A stretch of 41,412 nt of DNA from IMG/VR virus record IMGVR_UViG_3300033552_000023, positions 1-41,412 of that record. One strand, 5' to 3'. A program made the position numbers and the translations under genes. Below the pieces are notes generated by a model. That model searched no databases, was not told the origin of the DNA, and saw only the letters and a program-made list of their open reading frames with translations. The stretch is from a virus. Positions 1,544 through 10,156 of this stretch are shown here, in pieces (within the stretch, counting starts at the first letter, position 1; each line of letters begins with the position of its first letter).

Positions 1544-1778
1544 GGTGTCTCACCCTCCGAAGGTTGTGGCTCGACTTCGACCGGCTCAACGCCAAAGCTG
1601 TTGTCGGTGATGTTTTCGTGTGACACAGAGAGAGAGAGCGCGCGTACTGTGGAGTCAGCTTCCGCACGATCAAAAGGTCACCCTTCCGGCAAAAGTAGCC
1701 TCCCGGTGCATAGTCGTCGGCAGGTTCGTAAATAGCCTCTTTGGCGCGCACGCGGTCGCCCACCTTGTATTCGCTCAT
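1533..1778 (-). CDS. Small SH3-like phage protein, frameshifted at a (CT)6 tract
   Basis: As read, 81 residues starting MSEYKVGDRVRAKEAIY, with a GGAGG ribosome site. The first 40 residues resemble a small SH3-like barrel (VGDRVRAKE...GGYFCRKGDLLIVRK). After a CT-dinucleotide tract the frame turns into Ser/Thr/Arg-rich sequence of poor quality and stops at 1533, eleven bases inside the next gene. Removing one CT unit (equivalently a +1 change) restores a good-looking tail, SVSHENITDNSFGVEPVEVE..., that ends at 1540 with the same ATGA overlap as the neighbours. I therefore think the ancestral gene is 1540..1778 (78 residues) and that this copy is frameshifted, slips, or holds a sequencing error. 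Confidence 0.7.
   Translation of the reverse strand: MSEYKVGDRVRAKEAIYEPADDYAPGGYFCRKGDLLIVRKLTPQYARSLSLCHTKTSPTTALALSRSKSSHNLRRVRHHDQ
1627..1638 (-). repeat. (CT)6 dinucleotide tract inside a coding region
   Basis: Six AG units on the plus strand, CT as read in the gene, placed exactly where the frame of the gene at 1533..1778 breaks. It is flanked by GCGC and ACAC dinucleotides, which makes the area prone to slippage. Confidence 0.85.
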
Positions 1779-2212
1779 GCGCCCTCCGCAGGTTGTGGCG
1801 TGGCGCCTGGTGGGTGTGGTTTCGGCATCCAGTGCGTAACGTTGCACTTGATGTGCTGCAAGCCAAAGTTAATTTCATATTCGGAATAAGTCCATTCCCC
1901 GTTCGTGTTCACCAAAGCCTCGCAGCAATATTCGTCCGGGCGGGGATACACCCAAACCTCATCAAAAGGCTTTGGCAAACTGTCCGCAACGCTAATCCAG
2001 CCATGCTTTGGCGCACTGGTTGCGCTTGCCCGTGTGTTCCATGCTTCGTATGCAGTCTTTTCGGGCAGCGTGTCTGGGTCACCACAAGTTGCACCACAGG
2101 TATTGCAAACAACATACCGAACTACTCCGCACTCCGCTGGGTGTTCGTAATGCCCAGGCTCGGGCTTGCCACAAAACGGGCAGGGCAACAGGTCTTTGGT
2201 TTGGGCGTTCAT
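1775..2212 (-). CDS. Lar-like zinc-finger protein fused to a DUF551 domain
   Basis: A 145-residue two-domain protein. Residues 9-63 match the Lar family (restriction alleviation protein): LLPCPFCGKPEP, then a second cysteine pair (VVCNTCGAT), and the AYEAWNTRA ending typical of Lar. Residues 71-137 match DUF551: W-I-SVADSLPKP, an aromatic middle and a final THWMPKP. Lar of Rac/lambdoid phages modulates type I restriction, but many Lar-like phage proteins are untested, so an anti-restriction role is inference. The start at 2212 has an AAGGA site about 11 bases upstream and overlaps the preceding stop as ATGA; the stop overlaps the next gene the same way. Confidence 0.8.
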   Translation of the reverse strand: MNAQTKDLLPCPFCGKPEPGHYEHPAECGVVRYVVCNTCGATCGDPDTLPEKTAYEAWNTRASATSAPKHGWISVADSLPKPFDEVWVYPRPDEYCCEALVNTNGEWTYSEYEINFGLQHIKCNVTHWMPKPHPPGATPQPAEGA

Positions 2213-3087: not shown

Positions 3088-3269
3088 TCCTGCTTTCCTT
3101 GTTTCAATTCGCCGGCTGCAACGTGCAAAGCGAGCTCCTCTGGCGTCATCTGCCCGCTGTTCACACACTCTCGCAGCAGAGTGAGGTAATCCGGGTCTCC
3201 CGGGCCGACGCGGCTGGCCAGGGATGCAGTGTTGCGGACCTCGGCGTTTTCAATAGTGCTGTTGATCAT
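3084..3269 (-). CDS. Small hypothetical phage protein (61 aa)
   Basis: A mostly helical acidic protein starting MINSTIENAEVR. The second half (DPDYLTLLRECVNSGQMTPEELALHVAAGELKQ) looks like two helices joined by a turn, with an EE/LA pattern that could mediate protein contacts. It overlaps both neighbours by ATGA. A GCAGGT sequence about 9-13 bases upstream is an acceptable ribosome site. No family recognised. Confidence 0.7.
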   Translation of the reverse strand: MINSTIENAEVRNTASLASRVGPGDPDYLTLLRECVNSGQMTPEELALHVAAGELKQGKQE

Positions 3270-3466
3270 GACAATTTACCTGCTGGTTGTTGATGTGAAG
3301 ATGCTTTGGCGGGATAGTGCGTGACATACGCAGTCGGGTGGGCATCATCGGTAGGGTGAAGGCCAGCATGGTTGCCGCAGTGGCTAAAGCCGTGGTTGCC
3401 TGGGCCAAAGGTTTCGCCGCAGGCGCTGCACGCGACGACTGGAAAGCGGTACTGGGCGGCGGTCAT
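3266..3466 (-). CDS. Small zinc-binding protein
   Basis: A 66-residue protein with a CSAC pair at residues 13-16 and a HC..H cluster at 29-33 (HGFSHCGNH), enough ligands for one zinc knuckle. The C-terminal half is His-rich and polar (LHPTDDAHPTAYVTHYPAK) and probably flexible. ATGA overlaps on both sides place it firmly in the operon that starts at 3705. Small phage zinc fingers often bind DNA or host proteins; no specific role can be read here. Confidence 0.7.
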   Translation of the reverse strand: MTAAQYRFPVVACSACGETFGPGNHGFSHCGNHAGLHPTDDAHPTAYVTHYPAKASSHQQPAGKLS

Positions 3467-5945: not shown

Positions 5946-6038
5946 TATTAAAACTAAGTACAAACCCTTGGCATCAGCATCAAAAGCACTGATCGTTTAT
6001 CCAGTAGTTGCACAGGACGCGTACAAATTCACCAGAAA

Positions 6039-6082
6039 AATCGACACGTCCGGCCGACATGTACAGCCAATCGACACGTCCG
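6039..6082. repeat. Pair of 14-base direct repeats, 30-base period
   Basis: AATCGACACGTCCG occurs exactly at 6039-6052 and 6069-6082, start to start 30 bases, so both copies face nearly the same side of the helix. They lie 20-65 bases upstream of the -35 box of the rightward promoter. An activator or repressor site is likely; origin iterons are possible but two copies are few. Apart from these, 5946-6102 shows nothing recognisable. Confidence 0.7.
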
Positions 6083-6102: not shown

Positions 6103-6129
6103 TTGACACAATTAAATGTTGTGTATAAT
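6103..6129 (+). promoter_or_regulatory. Rightward promoter TTGACA/TATAAT with short spacer
   Basis: Consensus TTGACA (6103-6108) and TATAAT (6124-6129) are only 15 bases apart. The short spacer holds an inverted repeat, ACACAA-N7-TTGTGT (6106-6124). Perfect boxes with bad spacing suggest a promoter that needs a regulator. It faces the structured RNA and the packaging/structural genes. Confidence 0.7.
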
Positions 6130-6135
6130 AAACAA

Positions 6136-6357
6136 CAGTCTGGTCGAAAGACCTGAGAAAGTTAAGCCGGGCACCCCTTCAGGCCACTCGCCAACACAAC
6201 GAAGAACAGGGATCGCCCGGCGCCCGCATCAAAGAGTTCCCGCTCTGCTTCGGCATCGGGCTAGGGGGTGTGCTAGCCGCCCCAAGGCGACAGCAGACGC
6301 GTGCAACACGCGTCTGCCCCGTTGCTCTTGTCCGTGGGATGCGGGCTTCTATTTTGG
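6136..6357 (+). ncRNA. Large structured leader RNA or stand-alone ncRNA
   Basis: The roughly 220 bases after the rightward promoter hold no plausible coding frame but many nested complementary segments. (1) GGTC-GAAA-GACC at 6142-6153 with a GNRA loop. (2) GCCGGGC 6166-6172 with GCCCGGC 6215-6221, extended inward by CCC/GGG. (3) GCCCGCATC 6222-6230 with GATGCGGGC 6338-6346, stacked directly on helix 2 and enclosing the rest. (4) CCCG 6239-6242 with CGGG 6256-6259, or the inner TGC-TTCG-GCA, a UUCG loop. (5) GGCTAG/CTAGCC 6259-6278, sharing bases with helix 4. (6) CGCC-CCAA-GGCG 6278-6289. (7) An 11-bp hairpin 6293-6317 with loop CAA. The closing helix is followed by TTCTATTTT, like an intrinsic terminator. 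I recognise no known RNA family. It may be a free RNA or an attenuator for the downstream operon. Confidence 0.55.
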
Positions 6358-6383: not shown

Positions 6384-6689
6384 ATGTCAGCAAAGCATAA
6401 ATGTCGCGCCAGAACCATTGCAGCTTACCTGCTGGCGGCGCTGATGACTTTGCCGACAGCTGGCATGGCGGTGCAGATGAAGGACGGCAACTACCTGCTG
6501 ACACCGGTCGAGGTTAAGGCTTGCGCGGATGGCGGTGGATGCCTGGTGATGCCAACAATGGCACTGGAGGACGCGTTGCAACGAGCAGGCGAGAGCGGCT
6601 ACGCGCAAGGATTAGAAGCGGGCGGCAAGCAAGGCTACCGCGCGGGACTGGATGCTGGGCGCAGGTCTTGCACCAAGGGCTGGCTGTAA
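6384..6689 (+). CDS. Small exported protein with signal peptide
   Basis: A 101-residue protein starting MSAKHKCRARTIAAYLLAAL. Basic residues, a hydrophobic core (AAYLLAALMTLPTAG) and an AxA site ending at about residue 29 (GMAVQ) make a clear signal peptide, so the mature roughly 72 residues should be periplasmic. The mature part has two cysteines (ACADGGGC) and Gly/Ala repeats (GYAQGLEAGGKQGYRAGLDAGRR), a helical DxG/AxG pattern. The ATG at 6384 has GAAGGA 6 bases upstream. It is the first gene of the rightward operon. No family recognised; a role at the envelope, such as lysis control or exclusion, is only a guess. Confidence 0.7.
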   Translation: MSAKHKCRARTIAAYLLAALMTLPTAGMAVQMKDGNYLLTPVEVKACADGGGCLVMPTMALEDALQRAGESGYAQGLEAGGKQGYRAGLDAGRRSCTKGWL

Positions 6690-7575: not shown

Positions 7576-7807
7576 GGCCAACCCCTTTAAACCCGACGCC
7601 AGCCGTGACAGGCCTCTGATCGTCTCGGGCGGCCTGGGTGCCGTTGGCTACTACTTTCGCCCAGAGCAGTCAGAAGACGCAGCCCAGGCCGTTGCTGCTA
7701 TTCATCCGCCGAGCGGAATGAGGGCTGATCCAAAGCATTTCCCGTTGAATCAGGACCACGATGTGATGCCTATCGGCATTCATGCTGTCCGATGGATCGC
7801 CGCATGA
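7568..7807 (+). CDS. Small hypothetical protein with GTG start
   Basis: A 79-residue frame from a GTG that overlaps the previous gene by 8 bases; no ATG fits and the only ribosome-site candidate is AAGTGG. The protein reads sensibly: VEANPFKPDASRDRPLIVSGG, a Gly/Tyr stretch (LGAVGYYFRPEQ), a helix (EDAAQAVAAI) and a Pro/His-rich middle. The TGA at 7805-7807 overlaps the small-terminase ATG at 7804 as ATGA, which is the best evidence that the frame is real. Function unknown. Confidence 0.6.
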   Translation: MVEANPFKPDASRDRPLIVSGGLGAVGYYFRPEQSEDAAQAVAAIHPPSGMRADPKHFPLNQDHDVMPIGIHAVRWIAA

Positions 7808-8436
7808 CCGAGAACACCAAAGACAAAAAGCCAGCGATTGACTGGGAAGCAGTCGAGCCGCACTACCGGGCAGGCATTCGCTCGCTCAAGGATATTGGCA
7901 AGGAATACGGCGTCTCTGATGCAGGGATTATCAAGAAAGCCAAAGGCCTTGGGTGGACACGAGACCTCAAGGCAAAGATCAAAGCCAAGGCTGAAGCGCG
8001 AGTTAGTGCCGCAGCGGTTAGCGAGTTAGTTAGTGAACAGAAGGCCGCTAACGAACAGGCCGTCATTGAAGCCAACGCCGACCTTCAGTACCGCATTCGT
8101 ATCGAGCACCGCGCAGACATTGGCCGCTCCCGCGCGCTGTTTCGCAACCTGCTCACCGAAATTGAGGCCGAGACTCACAACCTGACGCTCTTCCAGGGCC
8201 TGGGCGAGCTGATGGATACCTCGGGTCCTGATCACACAGGCACATTCCGCAAGGACAAACTCAACGAGCTGTACCAGAAGGTCATCAGCTCTGTCGGCCG
8301 CGTCGATGCCAGCAAGAAGCTGATCGAGATGCTGGAAAAGCTGATCAAGATGGAGCGCCAGGCCTTTGGCATCAGTGATGGCGAGGAAGAGAAGTCGAAC
8401 ATCGAAGAGCTGCTCAAAGGGATTCAGAACCTATGA
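7804..8436 (+). CDS. Terminase small subunit (putative)
   Basis: A 210-residue protein starting MTENTKDKKPAIDW. Residues about 14-60 make a helix-turn-helix of the small-terminase type (EAVEPHYRAGIRSLKDIGKEYGVSDAGIIKKAKGLGW), followed by basic helices (RDLKAKIKAKAEARV), a long central helical segment that would form the oligomerisation ring, and an acidic C-terminus (DGEEEKSNIEELLKGIQ) that would contact the large subunit. Family role: recognises phage DNA for packaging. The ATG at 7804 is preferred to one four codons earlier because it gives the ATGA overlap. The large subunit lies 158 bases on, after one tiny gene. Confidence 0.8.
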   Translation: MTENTKDKKPAIDWEAVEPHYRAGIRSLKDIGKEYGVSDAGIIKKAKGLGWTRDLKAKIKAKAEARVSAAAVSELVSEQKAANEQAVIEANADLQYRIRIEHRADIGRSRALFRNLLTEIEAETHNLTLFQGLGELMDTSGPDHTGTFRKDKLNELYQKVISSVGRVDASKKLIEMLEKLIKMERQAFGISDGEEEKSNIEELLKGIQNL

Positions 8437-8597
8437 GCAAGCCTCTACTCATCAAACGTGGTGGCCTGTGGTTCTGCTTCGACCTTATAGATGACCCCAG
8501 GCGCGGCGGCTACCTGATTCCGGCATCGGGTGCTTCGCCAGCCATTGCTTATGGCTACTGGGTGAGGCGCAATCACAGGGCTGGGCTCTTGGCATGA
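8433..8597 (+). CDS. Tiny gene between the terminase subunits (54 aa)
   Basis: ATG at 8433 overlaps the small-terminase stop and its TGA at 8595-8597 overlaps the large-terminase ATG, both as ATGA, so it fills the gap exactly. The product starts MSKPLLIKRGGLWFCFDLID, continues through a Gly/Pro/Ala-rich part (GYLIPASGASPAIAYGYWV) and ends basic (RRNHRAGLLA). It is aromatic-rich and probably a small beta fold. Function unknown; perfect coupling on both sides makes a real gene likely, and a role in terminase assembly is only suggested by position. Confidence 0.7.
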   Translation: MSKPLLIKRGGLWFCFDLIDDPRRGGYLIPASGASPAIAYGYWVRRNHRAGLLA

Positions 8598-10156
8598 CCC
8601 ACACGACCGAGCTCACCGACAGCCAGCGCAAGCTGATTCGCCTGCGTGATGACCTGGAGCTTTACTCCCGGCATGCGCTGAAGGTGCTGGACAAGGGTGG
8701 TCGGTTGGTGCCGTTCATTTTCAACCGCGCGCAGAGGCACATTCATGCGCAGCTCGAAGAGCAACTCAAGATCCATGGGTTGGTTCGTGCGCTGGCATTA
8801 AAAGGGCGTCAACAGGGATGTTCAACCTATGTGGGCGCGCGGTTCTACCACAAGACATCGATGCGACCAGGCCGTCGCAGCTTTATCGTTGCGCACGAAG
8901 AAAAGGCGACGACCAACCTGTTCAACATGGTCAAGCGCTATCAGGACCACAACCCGCTTGCGCCAAGCATCAAGGCATCGAACGCACAGGAGCTGATCTT
9001 CGGCAAACTCGACAGCGGCTACAAGCTGGCCACAGCTGGCAGCAAGGACGTTGGGCGATCAAACACAGCGCAACTTCTGCATGGAAGCGAATTCGGCTTT
9101 TGGGCCAACGCGCAGATGCACCTGGCTGGAATCGGTAACACCATCCCGTCGGGCACCGAAGGCGTGGACACCGAGATCATTCTGGAGTCAACCGGCAATG
9201 GCCTGGGCAATGCCTTCCACCTGATGTGGCAGGACGCCGAGGCGGGCAAGGGCGAGTACATGGCCATCTTTGTGCCTTGGTACTGGCAGGACGAGTACCG
9301 CACGCCACCGCGCGAGAACTTCGAGCTGAGCATCGAAGACCTGGCCTACCAGCTGGCCTATGGCTTGGACCTGGCGCAGATGCAGTGGCGGCAGAACAAG
9401 ATCATCGAGTACGGCGAGGGCTTTGCCTGGTTGTTTGACCAGGAATATCCAGCCACTGCCTCGCTGGCCTTCAAGACCAGCACACAGAACCCGCTGATCA
9501 ACCCATCCTCTGTGATGAGGGCCGTCAACAGTGACTACCTGGACCTCGAGTCGCCATTGATCATCGGCTGCGATCCAGCTGGTGATGGCCAGGGCACGAG
9601 TGACCGCACGTCGCTGGCCTTTAGATGTGGGCGCACCTGCTTTCGCATCGAATACCACGACAAGCTCAGCACGATGCAGATTGCCGGCAAGCTGGCTGGT
9701 TACTGGATGGACGGCATCGTCTGCAACGGCCGCACGCTGTACCCGGACGCCATGTTTGTGGACAAGGGTGGACTGGGCGCAGGCATTGTTGACCGATTGC
9801 TGGAGCTGAATATCCCTGTCATCGGCGTGAGCTTTGCGCAGCAGGCCAGCAAGCCAGATTTGTACTTAAACAAGCGCGCTGAAATCTGGTGGACCATGTG
9901 CGACTGGTTTGGGGACTATCCAAACCGCTGCCCGAACGATGCAGCCCTGATTTCCGATTGCTGTGCACCACAGCCGGTTGAGAACTCGCGCAATGTGCGC
10001 CAGCTCGAGAGCAAAGATCAAATGAAGAAGCGCCAGATTCGCAGCCCTGACGGCGGCGATGCACTGGCCCTGACCTTCAGCGCGCCGGTTGCACCGCGCA
10101 GCGCCAATCCAGGACGCAGCACCCAGGCTGTTGCTACCACCAGCGCTGGCTACTGA
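8594..10156 (+). CDS. Terminase large subunit
   Basis: A 520-residue packaging motor. The ATPase part has a Walker A variant GRQQGCST (71-78), an FIVAHEEKATTNL segment, an HGSEFGFW segment at 162-169 that should hold the Walker B/catalytic Glu165, and the coupling motif ESTGNG (197-202). The RNase H-fold nuclease has IIGCDPAGD with Asp326 and Asp330, a second acidic residue in FVDKGG (Asp389), and a final SPDGGDALALTF with Asp485/Asp488. All key residues are present and the length is normal, so it should both pump and cut DNA. Translation is coupled to the upstream 54-aa gene. It is followed 20 bases later by the portal. Confidence 0.95.
   Translation: MTHTTELTDSQRKLIRLRDDLELYSRHALKVLDKGGRLVPFIFNRAQRHIHAQLEEQLKIHGLVRALALKGRQQGCSTYVGARFYHKTSMRPGRRSFIVAHEEKATTNLFNMVKRYQDHNPLAPSIKASNAQELIFGKLDSGYKLATAGSKDVGRSNTAQLLHGSEFGFWANAQMHLAGIGNTIPSGTEGVDTEIILESTGNGLGNAFHLMWQDAEAGKGEYMAIFVPWYWQDEYRTPPRENFELSIEDLAYQLAYGLDLAQMQWRQNKIIEYGEGFAWLFDQEYPATASLAFKTSTQNPLINPSSVMRAVNSDYLDLESPLIIGCDPAGDGQGTSDRTSLAFRCGRTCFRIEYHDKLSTMQIAGKLAGYWMDGIVCNGRTLYPDAMFVDKGGLGAGIVDRLLELNIPVIGVSFAQQASKPDLYLNKRAEIWWTMCDWFGDYPNRCPNDAALISDCCAPQPVENSRNVRQLESKDQMKKRQIRSPDGGDALALTFSAPVAPRSANPGRSTQAVATTSAGY

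Follow-up and report, generated by a model that had tools for sequence, protein, structure and literature searches.

A structured RNA upstream of the late genes

The window analyzed here is the whole of a 41.4-kb IMG/VR virus record (IMGVR_UViG_3300033552_000023, positions 1 to 41,412). It belongs to a tailed phage with genes for small and large terminase subunits, a head-tail connector/portal-like protein and tail fibers, all on the plus strand. Our subject is an RNA at positions 6136 to 6357, with a group of small leftward genes on one side and the rightward late genes on the other, which an earlier note, made from the letters alone, had singled out as large and folded and had placed between the rightward promoter and the late operon. 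Both the fold and the location, where the early/control region gives way to the late operon, proved correct. We conclude that this RNA is real and not ordinary, and that it is one of a group of phage RNAs defined by a common hairpin and related to a bacterial RNA family linked to a toxin gene.

The minimum free energy (MFE) of the 222-nucleotide (nt) RNA is -98.1 kcal/mol, compared with -82.2 ± 5.0 for 200 dinucleotide shuffles, none of which was equally stable (z = -3.17); the reverse strand was less exceptional (z = -2.23). All the complementary segments named in the note (GAAA hairpin, 7-bp helix, 9-bp helix, UUCG hairpin, long stem and tail) exist where it had placed them. The region is noncoding, as had been supposed: translated comparison with the relatives L004 and L362 gave no conserved protein frame over 6136-6357, only short pieces in several frames simultaneously, most of them corresponding to the nucleotides of a common hairpin, H1 (see below). 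No Rfam family matched the RNA at its gathering score and matches at E ≤ 10 were at chance level, in agreement with the note, which had recognized no known family. The MFE model has an AGAGU/GCUCU pairing in place of the conserved H1; the fold containing H1 is 1.7 kcal/mol less stable, and it is the one that homologs support. Among the roles that had been considered, that of a stand-alone RNA fits the element's own promoter-like sequence and U-rich end (Table 1). A consensus promoter scan did not list this promoter because its spacer is short.

Table 1. Features at and downstream of the structured RNA (window coordinates)
Feature	Position	Strand	Basis
Sigma70-like promoter: TTGACA 6103-6108, 15-nt spacer, TATAAT 6124-6129; start expected near 6136	6103..6129	+	Sequence
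Structured RNA, probably a stand-alone transcript of ~220 nt	6136..6357	+	Shuffles, Rfam, frame checks
5' hairpin GGUC-GAAA-GACC	6142..6153	+	Sequence, MFE fold
Second 5' hairpin, GCCGGGC 6166-6172 with GCCCGGC 6215-6221; this phage's own	6166..6221	+	MFE fold
Closing 9-bp helix GCCCGCAUC/GAUGCGGGC, 6222-6230 with 6338-6346; putative scaffold for the antitoxin-like core	6222..6346	+	MFE, centroid fold
Match to covariance model R1 of the putative bacterial antitoxin RNA, all 91 positions	6236..6324	+	36.7 bits
H1, GUU-CCCG-CUC-UGC-UUCG-GCA-U-CGGG-CU (27 nt; GUU-CCCGCUCUGC-loop-GCAUCGGG-CU)	6236..6262	+	Common to the putative bacterial antitoxin RNAs and >100 phage contigs
UUCG hairpin inside H1	6246-6255	+	Sequence
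H2-position hairpin GGGGUG-UGCUAGC-CGCCCC; stem same in L004, unlike bacterial H2	6265..6283	+	
H3-position hairpin/long stem GCAGACGCGUGCAACACGCGUCUGC; without the GAUNNCAA loop of bacterial RNAs	6293..6317	+	
Weak intrinsic-terminator-like end: stem, then TTCTATTTTG	6330..6356	+	
Tail TTCTATTTT after the closing helix	6347-6355	+	
First downstream gene (101 aa), probable secreted small protein, no family; opens the rightward late operon	6384..6689	+	
Terminase small subunit, in the rightward late operon	7792-8436	+	
Terminase large subunit, in the rightward late operon	8594-10156	+	

The H1 hairpin in viral contigs

A first search with the pattern GGCATCGGGCTNNGGGG returned 56 contigs; apart from L004, L100 and L123, none looked related. 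L004, whose terminase is 67% identical to that of the window, has a similar element at the corresponding site, where a tRNA array precedes it and a late operon headed by an endolysin gene follows. The part common to L004 and the window is a short hairpin, behind which comes GGGGUG-7nt-CGCCCC. The array, immediately upstream of the homologous RNA in L004 (1273-2044), consists of seven tRNAs called by ARAGORN and a tRNA-Sec-like match; the window has no tRNA. The other two contigs revealed the common core GUUCCCGCUCUGC-NNNN-GCAUCGGGCU, which is H1. Scanning the IMG/VR viral contigs with the H1 skeleton matched at least 120 contigs, and removal of duplicates left 110 copies among the matches listed, about 7 of them probably due to chance. 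As a control, a pattern that kept all 17 fixed bases but barred C-G from the outer stem position gave 3 matches in the viral collection, none of them paired, so that H1 with its CCCG/CGGG stem is vastly more common in viruses than expected by chance. For the full 23-base H1 the expected number is well below one, and 52 copies with a 4-nt loop are among the matches listed.

The phages that carry H1 belong to unrelated lineages. Downstream of it we found tRNAs, portal genes accompanied by a metallophosphoesterase, a DNA polymerase block, tail genes, and endolysins or lysozyme, while the hairpin itself is nearly invariant in sequence. A TANNNT box stands 3 to 8 nt before the initial GUU in 66 of the 110 listed copies (shuffled mean, 7.8; maximum, 16), which indicates that H1 is usually at the extreme 5' end of the phage transcript. 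When R1, a covariance model of the bacterial RNA described below, was compared with the whole records of 25 viral loci, 24 matched, each exactly once; 106 of the 110 listed copies are orphans, without a toxin gene. A second architecture behind H1, a long covarying hairpin of the form GAGCCYAAGC...GCUURGGCCAUC, was observed in 28 of these 110 (for example, in L144, L151, L191 and L225). The GCGG variant of the H1 stem gave 26 viral matches, mostly chance, with two good ones (L324 and L335).

The region had no blastn match among 50,697 isolate phages, and short-hairpin matches in phages KPN6 and Aeromonas 65 were dropped because they did not match R1. Searching the terminase relatives of the window with R1 gave no match except a weak one in L004 (16.7 bits); the closest terminase relative (L002, 95%) begins downstream of the RNA and was unusable for comparison.

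A bacterial RNA paired with a PemK/MazF-family toxin gene

With a stricter H1 pattern, 36 loci were found among 85,000 bacterial and archaeal genomes; in 22 of them a PemK/MazF-family gene ends a few to 80 nt upstream of an RNA conforming to R1, on the same strand. The bacterial RNA has H1 at its 5' end, then H2 and H3, the latter with a conserved GAUNNCAA loop, and an intrinsic terminator follows within about 100 nt; its promoter-like TTGAC...TATA overlaps the end of the toxin gene. To avoid circularity, further genomes were searched with the toxin profile alone, blind to the RNA. The RNA adjoined the toxin in all 14 new loci, and in one of them (L313) it lies on the opposite strand, convergent with the toxin, so the bacterial RNA is a transcription unit of its own, neither a leader nor a 3' untranslated region (UTR). 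Plasmid toxins found by protein had the RNA in three of four cases. It was absent from PemK/MazF loci that match PF02452 but fall outside this toxin family (0/5), whereas all three family members in the same search had it. A genome-wide R1 search (E < 0.01) was positive in 13 of 14 toxin-positive versus 2 of 40 toxin-negative genomes; upstream of the RNA in one of these two (L275), the sequence encodes a toxin-like C terminus severed by the contig end. The pairing is near-obligate, and none of 13 genomes with an orphan RNA had the toxin elsewhere. No consistent protein partner was found upstream of the toxin, where neighbors vary by locus (RHH, XRE, dnaN, LysR, insertion sequences [IS] and others), and the RNA is the sole constant partner of the toxin gene across the loci examined.

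The RNA family covaries. RNAalifold on 30 sequences gave 20 pairs, 17 of them with compensatory changes. When 51 distinct sequences were aligned to R1, a procedure that fits the alignment to the model and biases it accordingly, 95.8% of the cells were paired, double changes affected 19 of the 20 pairs, and the covariation score was 0.58, compared with 0.15 for shuffles (0/500 as good) and at most 0.11 for slid versions. At a few bacterial loci, the CCCG/CGGG stem of H1 has become GCGG/CCGC with the CUC/U internal loop kept. Covariation had been proposed in the earlier note as a check on the fold; it was found in these bacterial relatives and not in close homologs of the window phage, where one distant example (L004) spans the region. 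One locus (L256) has two tandem RNA copies, at 2791-2883 and 3208-3303 on the minus strand, behind a single toxin gene. At another (L276, 340-1158), the module adjoins a gene that by eye resembles a TIR-domain protein; elsewhere its neighbors are IS elements, HigBA-like genes or terminase genes, the setting to be expected of defense islands and prophages.

The toxin family matches PF02452 (PemK/MazF). Its AlphaFold2 (AF2) model has a predicted local distance difference test score (pLDDT) of 90.7, and the best Foldseek matches are MazF chains. In the family alignment R30 is invariant and T53 nearly so, at what we take to be the positions of the catalytic Arg and Thr of MazF. Because of the MazF-like model and these conserved residues, the toxin is predicted to be an active endoribonuclease. 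Public annotation places it in type II, since the RNA went unseen; the conserved protein antitoxin gene of type II systems (PemIK/MazEF) was not found beside it.

The RNA family is apparently undescribed; neither the family nor its pairing with the toxin was found in Rfam or in the literature, in a search that covered open-access papers. Rfam RF02913 (the pemK RNA motif, 61 positions) is presumably a structured RNA associated with pemK genes, as the name implies. RNAs of the present family from 17 loci gave no match to it at the gathering score, and one locus gave none at E ≤ 10; it matched nowhere in the sample. GOLLD and ROOL are also structured phage RNAs, often beside tRNA genes, but they are several times larger than the window RNA, which has no Rfam match.

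In the type III systems ToxIN, CptIN and TenpIN, a tandem-repeat RNA lies upstream of the toxin, under a common promoter and with a terminator before the toxin gene (PMC5086642). The bacterial locus resembles them in combining an endoribonuclease of predicted MazF/ToxN fold (PF02452, AF2, Foldseek and the Arg/Thr pair), equivalent to the MazF/PemK-like fold of those systems, with a noncoding RNA, and in occurring on plasmids, prophages and chromosomes. It differs in that its RNA is single, nonrepetitive and three-hairpinned, lies downstream (once convergent) and has a promoter-like sequence and terminator of its own, and in that the toxin matches PF02452 with MazF as the best Foldseek match. 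Upstream tandem repeats behind one promoter are absent, and by gene order and repeat structure the RNA falls outside the described type III families. The avcID system, a dC (deoxycytidine) deaminase toxin with an RNA antitoxin, is a type III system outside these three that acts in phage defense (PMC10511110); the present module would likewise join a protein toxin to an RNA antitoxin, and it is set apart from avcID by its different toxin. By this analogy, we regard the toxin gene and its RNA as a putative new type III-like (protein-RNA) toxin-antitoxin module, in which the RNA would bind and neutralize the toxin.

Interpretation of the phage RNAs

Against R1, the window RNA scored 36.7 bits, with an E value of 3.9e-7 in a search of the window and of 6e-6 in one of 68 sources. 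Most of the score comes from H1, whose hairpin with the CUC/U internal loop is exact at 6239-6260. The hairpins at the H2 and H3 positions differ in sequence from the bacterial ones and the GAUNNCAA loop is missing, so the window RNA is an H1-bearing relative rather than a full-length R1 member. No toxin homolog was found anywhere in the window. A second R1 match there (5176-5084, minus strand, 16.4 bits) was taken as chance, with a broken stem in a likely coding region. What appears from its sequence to be the clearest mimic is carried by a 54-kb phage-plasmid of Endozoicomonas gorgoniicola. Like the window RNA, this orphan RNA immediately precedes a set of genes that leads on to the terminase small subunit. 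Its H1 and H2 are copies of those in the toxin-linked RNA found in a different Endozoicomonas strain; over 29 nt of H2 the two are 90% identical, and an A-U to G-C change has left the bases paired.

We favor, with a probability of about 60%, the reading of the window RNA as an orphan antitoxin RNA, encoded by the phage, that counters a putative host toxin, that is, a type III antitoxin mimic. It is preferred because the RNA is so strictly tied to the toxin in bacteria and each phage carries just one copy, and it corresponds to the role of anti-defense decoy, the best supported of those offered in the earlier note, as the exact core is common with the RNA adjoining a MazF-like toxin. In bacteria, a PemK/MazF-fold endoribonuclease would be paired with the separately transcribed H1-H2-H3 RNA and its terminator; by analogy with type III systems, this RNA would bind the toxin, probably through H1, and hold it inactive until infection or plasmid loss depletes the RNA. 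The phage would transcribe its own RNA, with H1 as a recognition hairpin set in a stable scaffold, and this RNA could flood or replace the host antitoxin, so that the toxin would stay unreleased and late gene expression would proceed. Pseudo-ToxI of phage PhiTE, an orphan phage version of a host's RNA antitoxin, suppresses the toxin by mimicking that antitoxin; it was described in one phage, with a repeat expansion selected in the laboratory (PMC3475682). It was the one case of RNA-based antitoxin mimicry by phages, a laboratory-evolved one, that we found in the open-access literature searched. The elements described here differ from it in being natural, single-copy and present in many unrelated phages, with a different RNA and toxin family; they are candidate mimics in more than 100 environmental phages, marked by one hairpin.

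Several observations weigh against antitoxin mimicry. The window and most phage copies keep H1 without the GAUNNCAA loop, the most conserved loop of the toxin-linked RNAs, and therefore H1 alone must suffice. The phage H1 is almost invariant, whereas the toxin-linked one tolerates covarying stems, and a few toxins adjoin RNAs with a simplified H1. Close phage relatives either miss the region (L002) or have no match, and the L004 match is weak. A tRNA or mRNA directly behind many phage copies also fits a 5'-leader role. The main weakness is that many phage copies consist of H1 only, at the 5' end of varied transcripts, as would suit a general 5'-end function. Such a module (stabilizing the RNA, marking it for processing or acting on RNA polymerase as a put-like element), unrelated to toxin neutralization, is an unlikely alternative: H1 stands at the transcription start in the 66 listed viral copies mentioned above and in the bacterial RNAs, and the nearly invariant phage H1 precedes tRNAs, mRNAs or other hairpins alike. 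It sits poorly with the single R1 match per viral record, even in records of 85 to 265 kb, where one per operon would be the pattern, with the strict co-occurrence with one toxin family, with the H2 of the toxin-linked RNA in some phage copies and with the window and L004, where H1 is not at the transcript start. The terminator within about 100 nt of the bacterial copies speaks against it too and disfavors a role in antitermination; antitermination like that of HK022 put is disfavored by the single copies as well.

That the family is a decoy for some other host factor (an RNase, an RNA chaperone or RNA polymerase), with the toxin locus using the RNA merely as a sensor or cis regulator, we consider improbable. 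H1 alone is common to all copies, and conservation at the sequence level points to a protein partner, which could be something other than the toxin; yet toxin-free genomes almost never have the RNA, though a general factor would be present in them, no separate regulatory target is apparent, and the convergent RNA of L313 is neither leader nor 3' UTR. Still less credit goes to an ordinary structured leader or attenuator of this phage's late operon, although a promoter-like sequence and the late genes flank the RNA and its terminal helix is followed by TTCTATTTT, since the core is exactly common to phages with unrelated downstream genes and to bacterial stand-alone RNAs, and other relatives in the same terminase lineage show no such RNA. 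The attenuator or antitermination leader of packaging genes raised in the earlier note is likewise disfavored, given one copy per record (24/24), varied downstream genes and bacterial counterparts that run directly into intrinsic terminators. Chance or convergence of GC-rich hairpins might be invoked, as the region is GC-rich and the MFE prefers an alternative local pairing; it is refuted by the counts (3 control-pattern matches in the whole viral collection versus the 52 listed copies with a 4-nt loop) and has a negligible probability. Mimicry of CRISPR repeats (Racr), judged by eye, was dropped in view of the asymmetric internal loop of H1 and of bacterial relatives that adjoin a toxin and not a CRISPR array.

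Through H1, a family of candidate protein-RNA toxin-antitoxin loci surfaced, and the hairpin can be used as a search key for phage RNA anti-defense genes. On the broader scale, the balance tips slightly toward a widespread toxin-antitoxin class (a MazF-fold RNase with a single downstream structured RNA), absent from Rfam and from the papers searched, that would be countered by equally widespread phage orphan RNA antitoxins, one 27-nt hairpin having been grafted onto tRNA operons, leaders or dedicated scaffolds, with the window RNA as the most elaborate example here.

Upstream of the RNA, a CTG-N10-CAG sequence (CTGATCGTTTATCCAG, 5989-6004) resembles a LexA/SOS box and suggests SOS-linked control of the leftward genes; the 24-bp stretch that holds it (5983-6006) is identical to L004 769-792 amid differing DNA. 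Between the divergent transcription units, AATCGACACGTCCG occurs in two direct copies (6039-6052 and 6069-6082) that are candidate operators. Within the leftward block, the gene at 1775-2212 (minus strand) encodes a Lar-like restriction-alleviation domain (PF14354) together with DUF551 and is possibly a second anti-defense gene.
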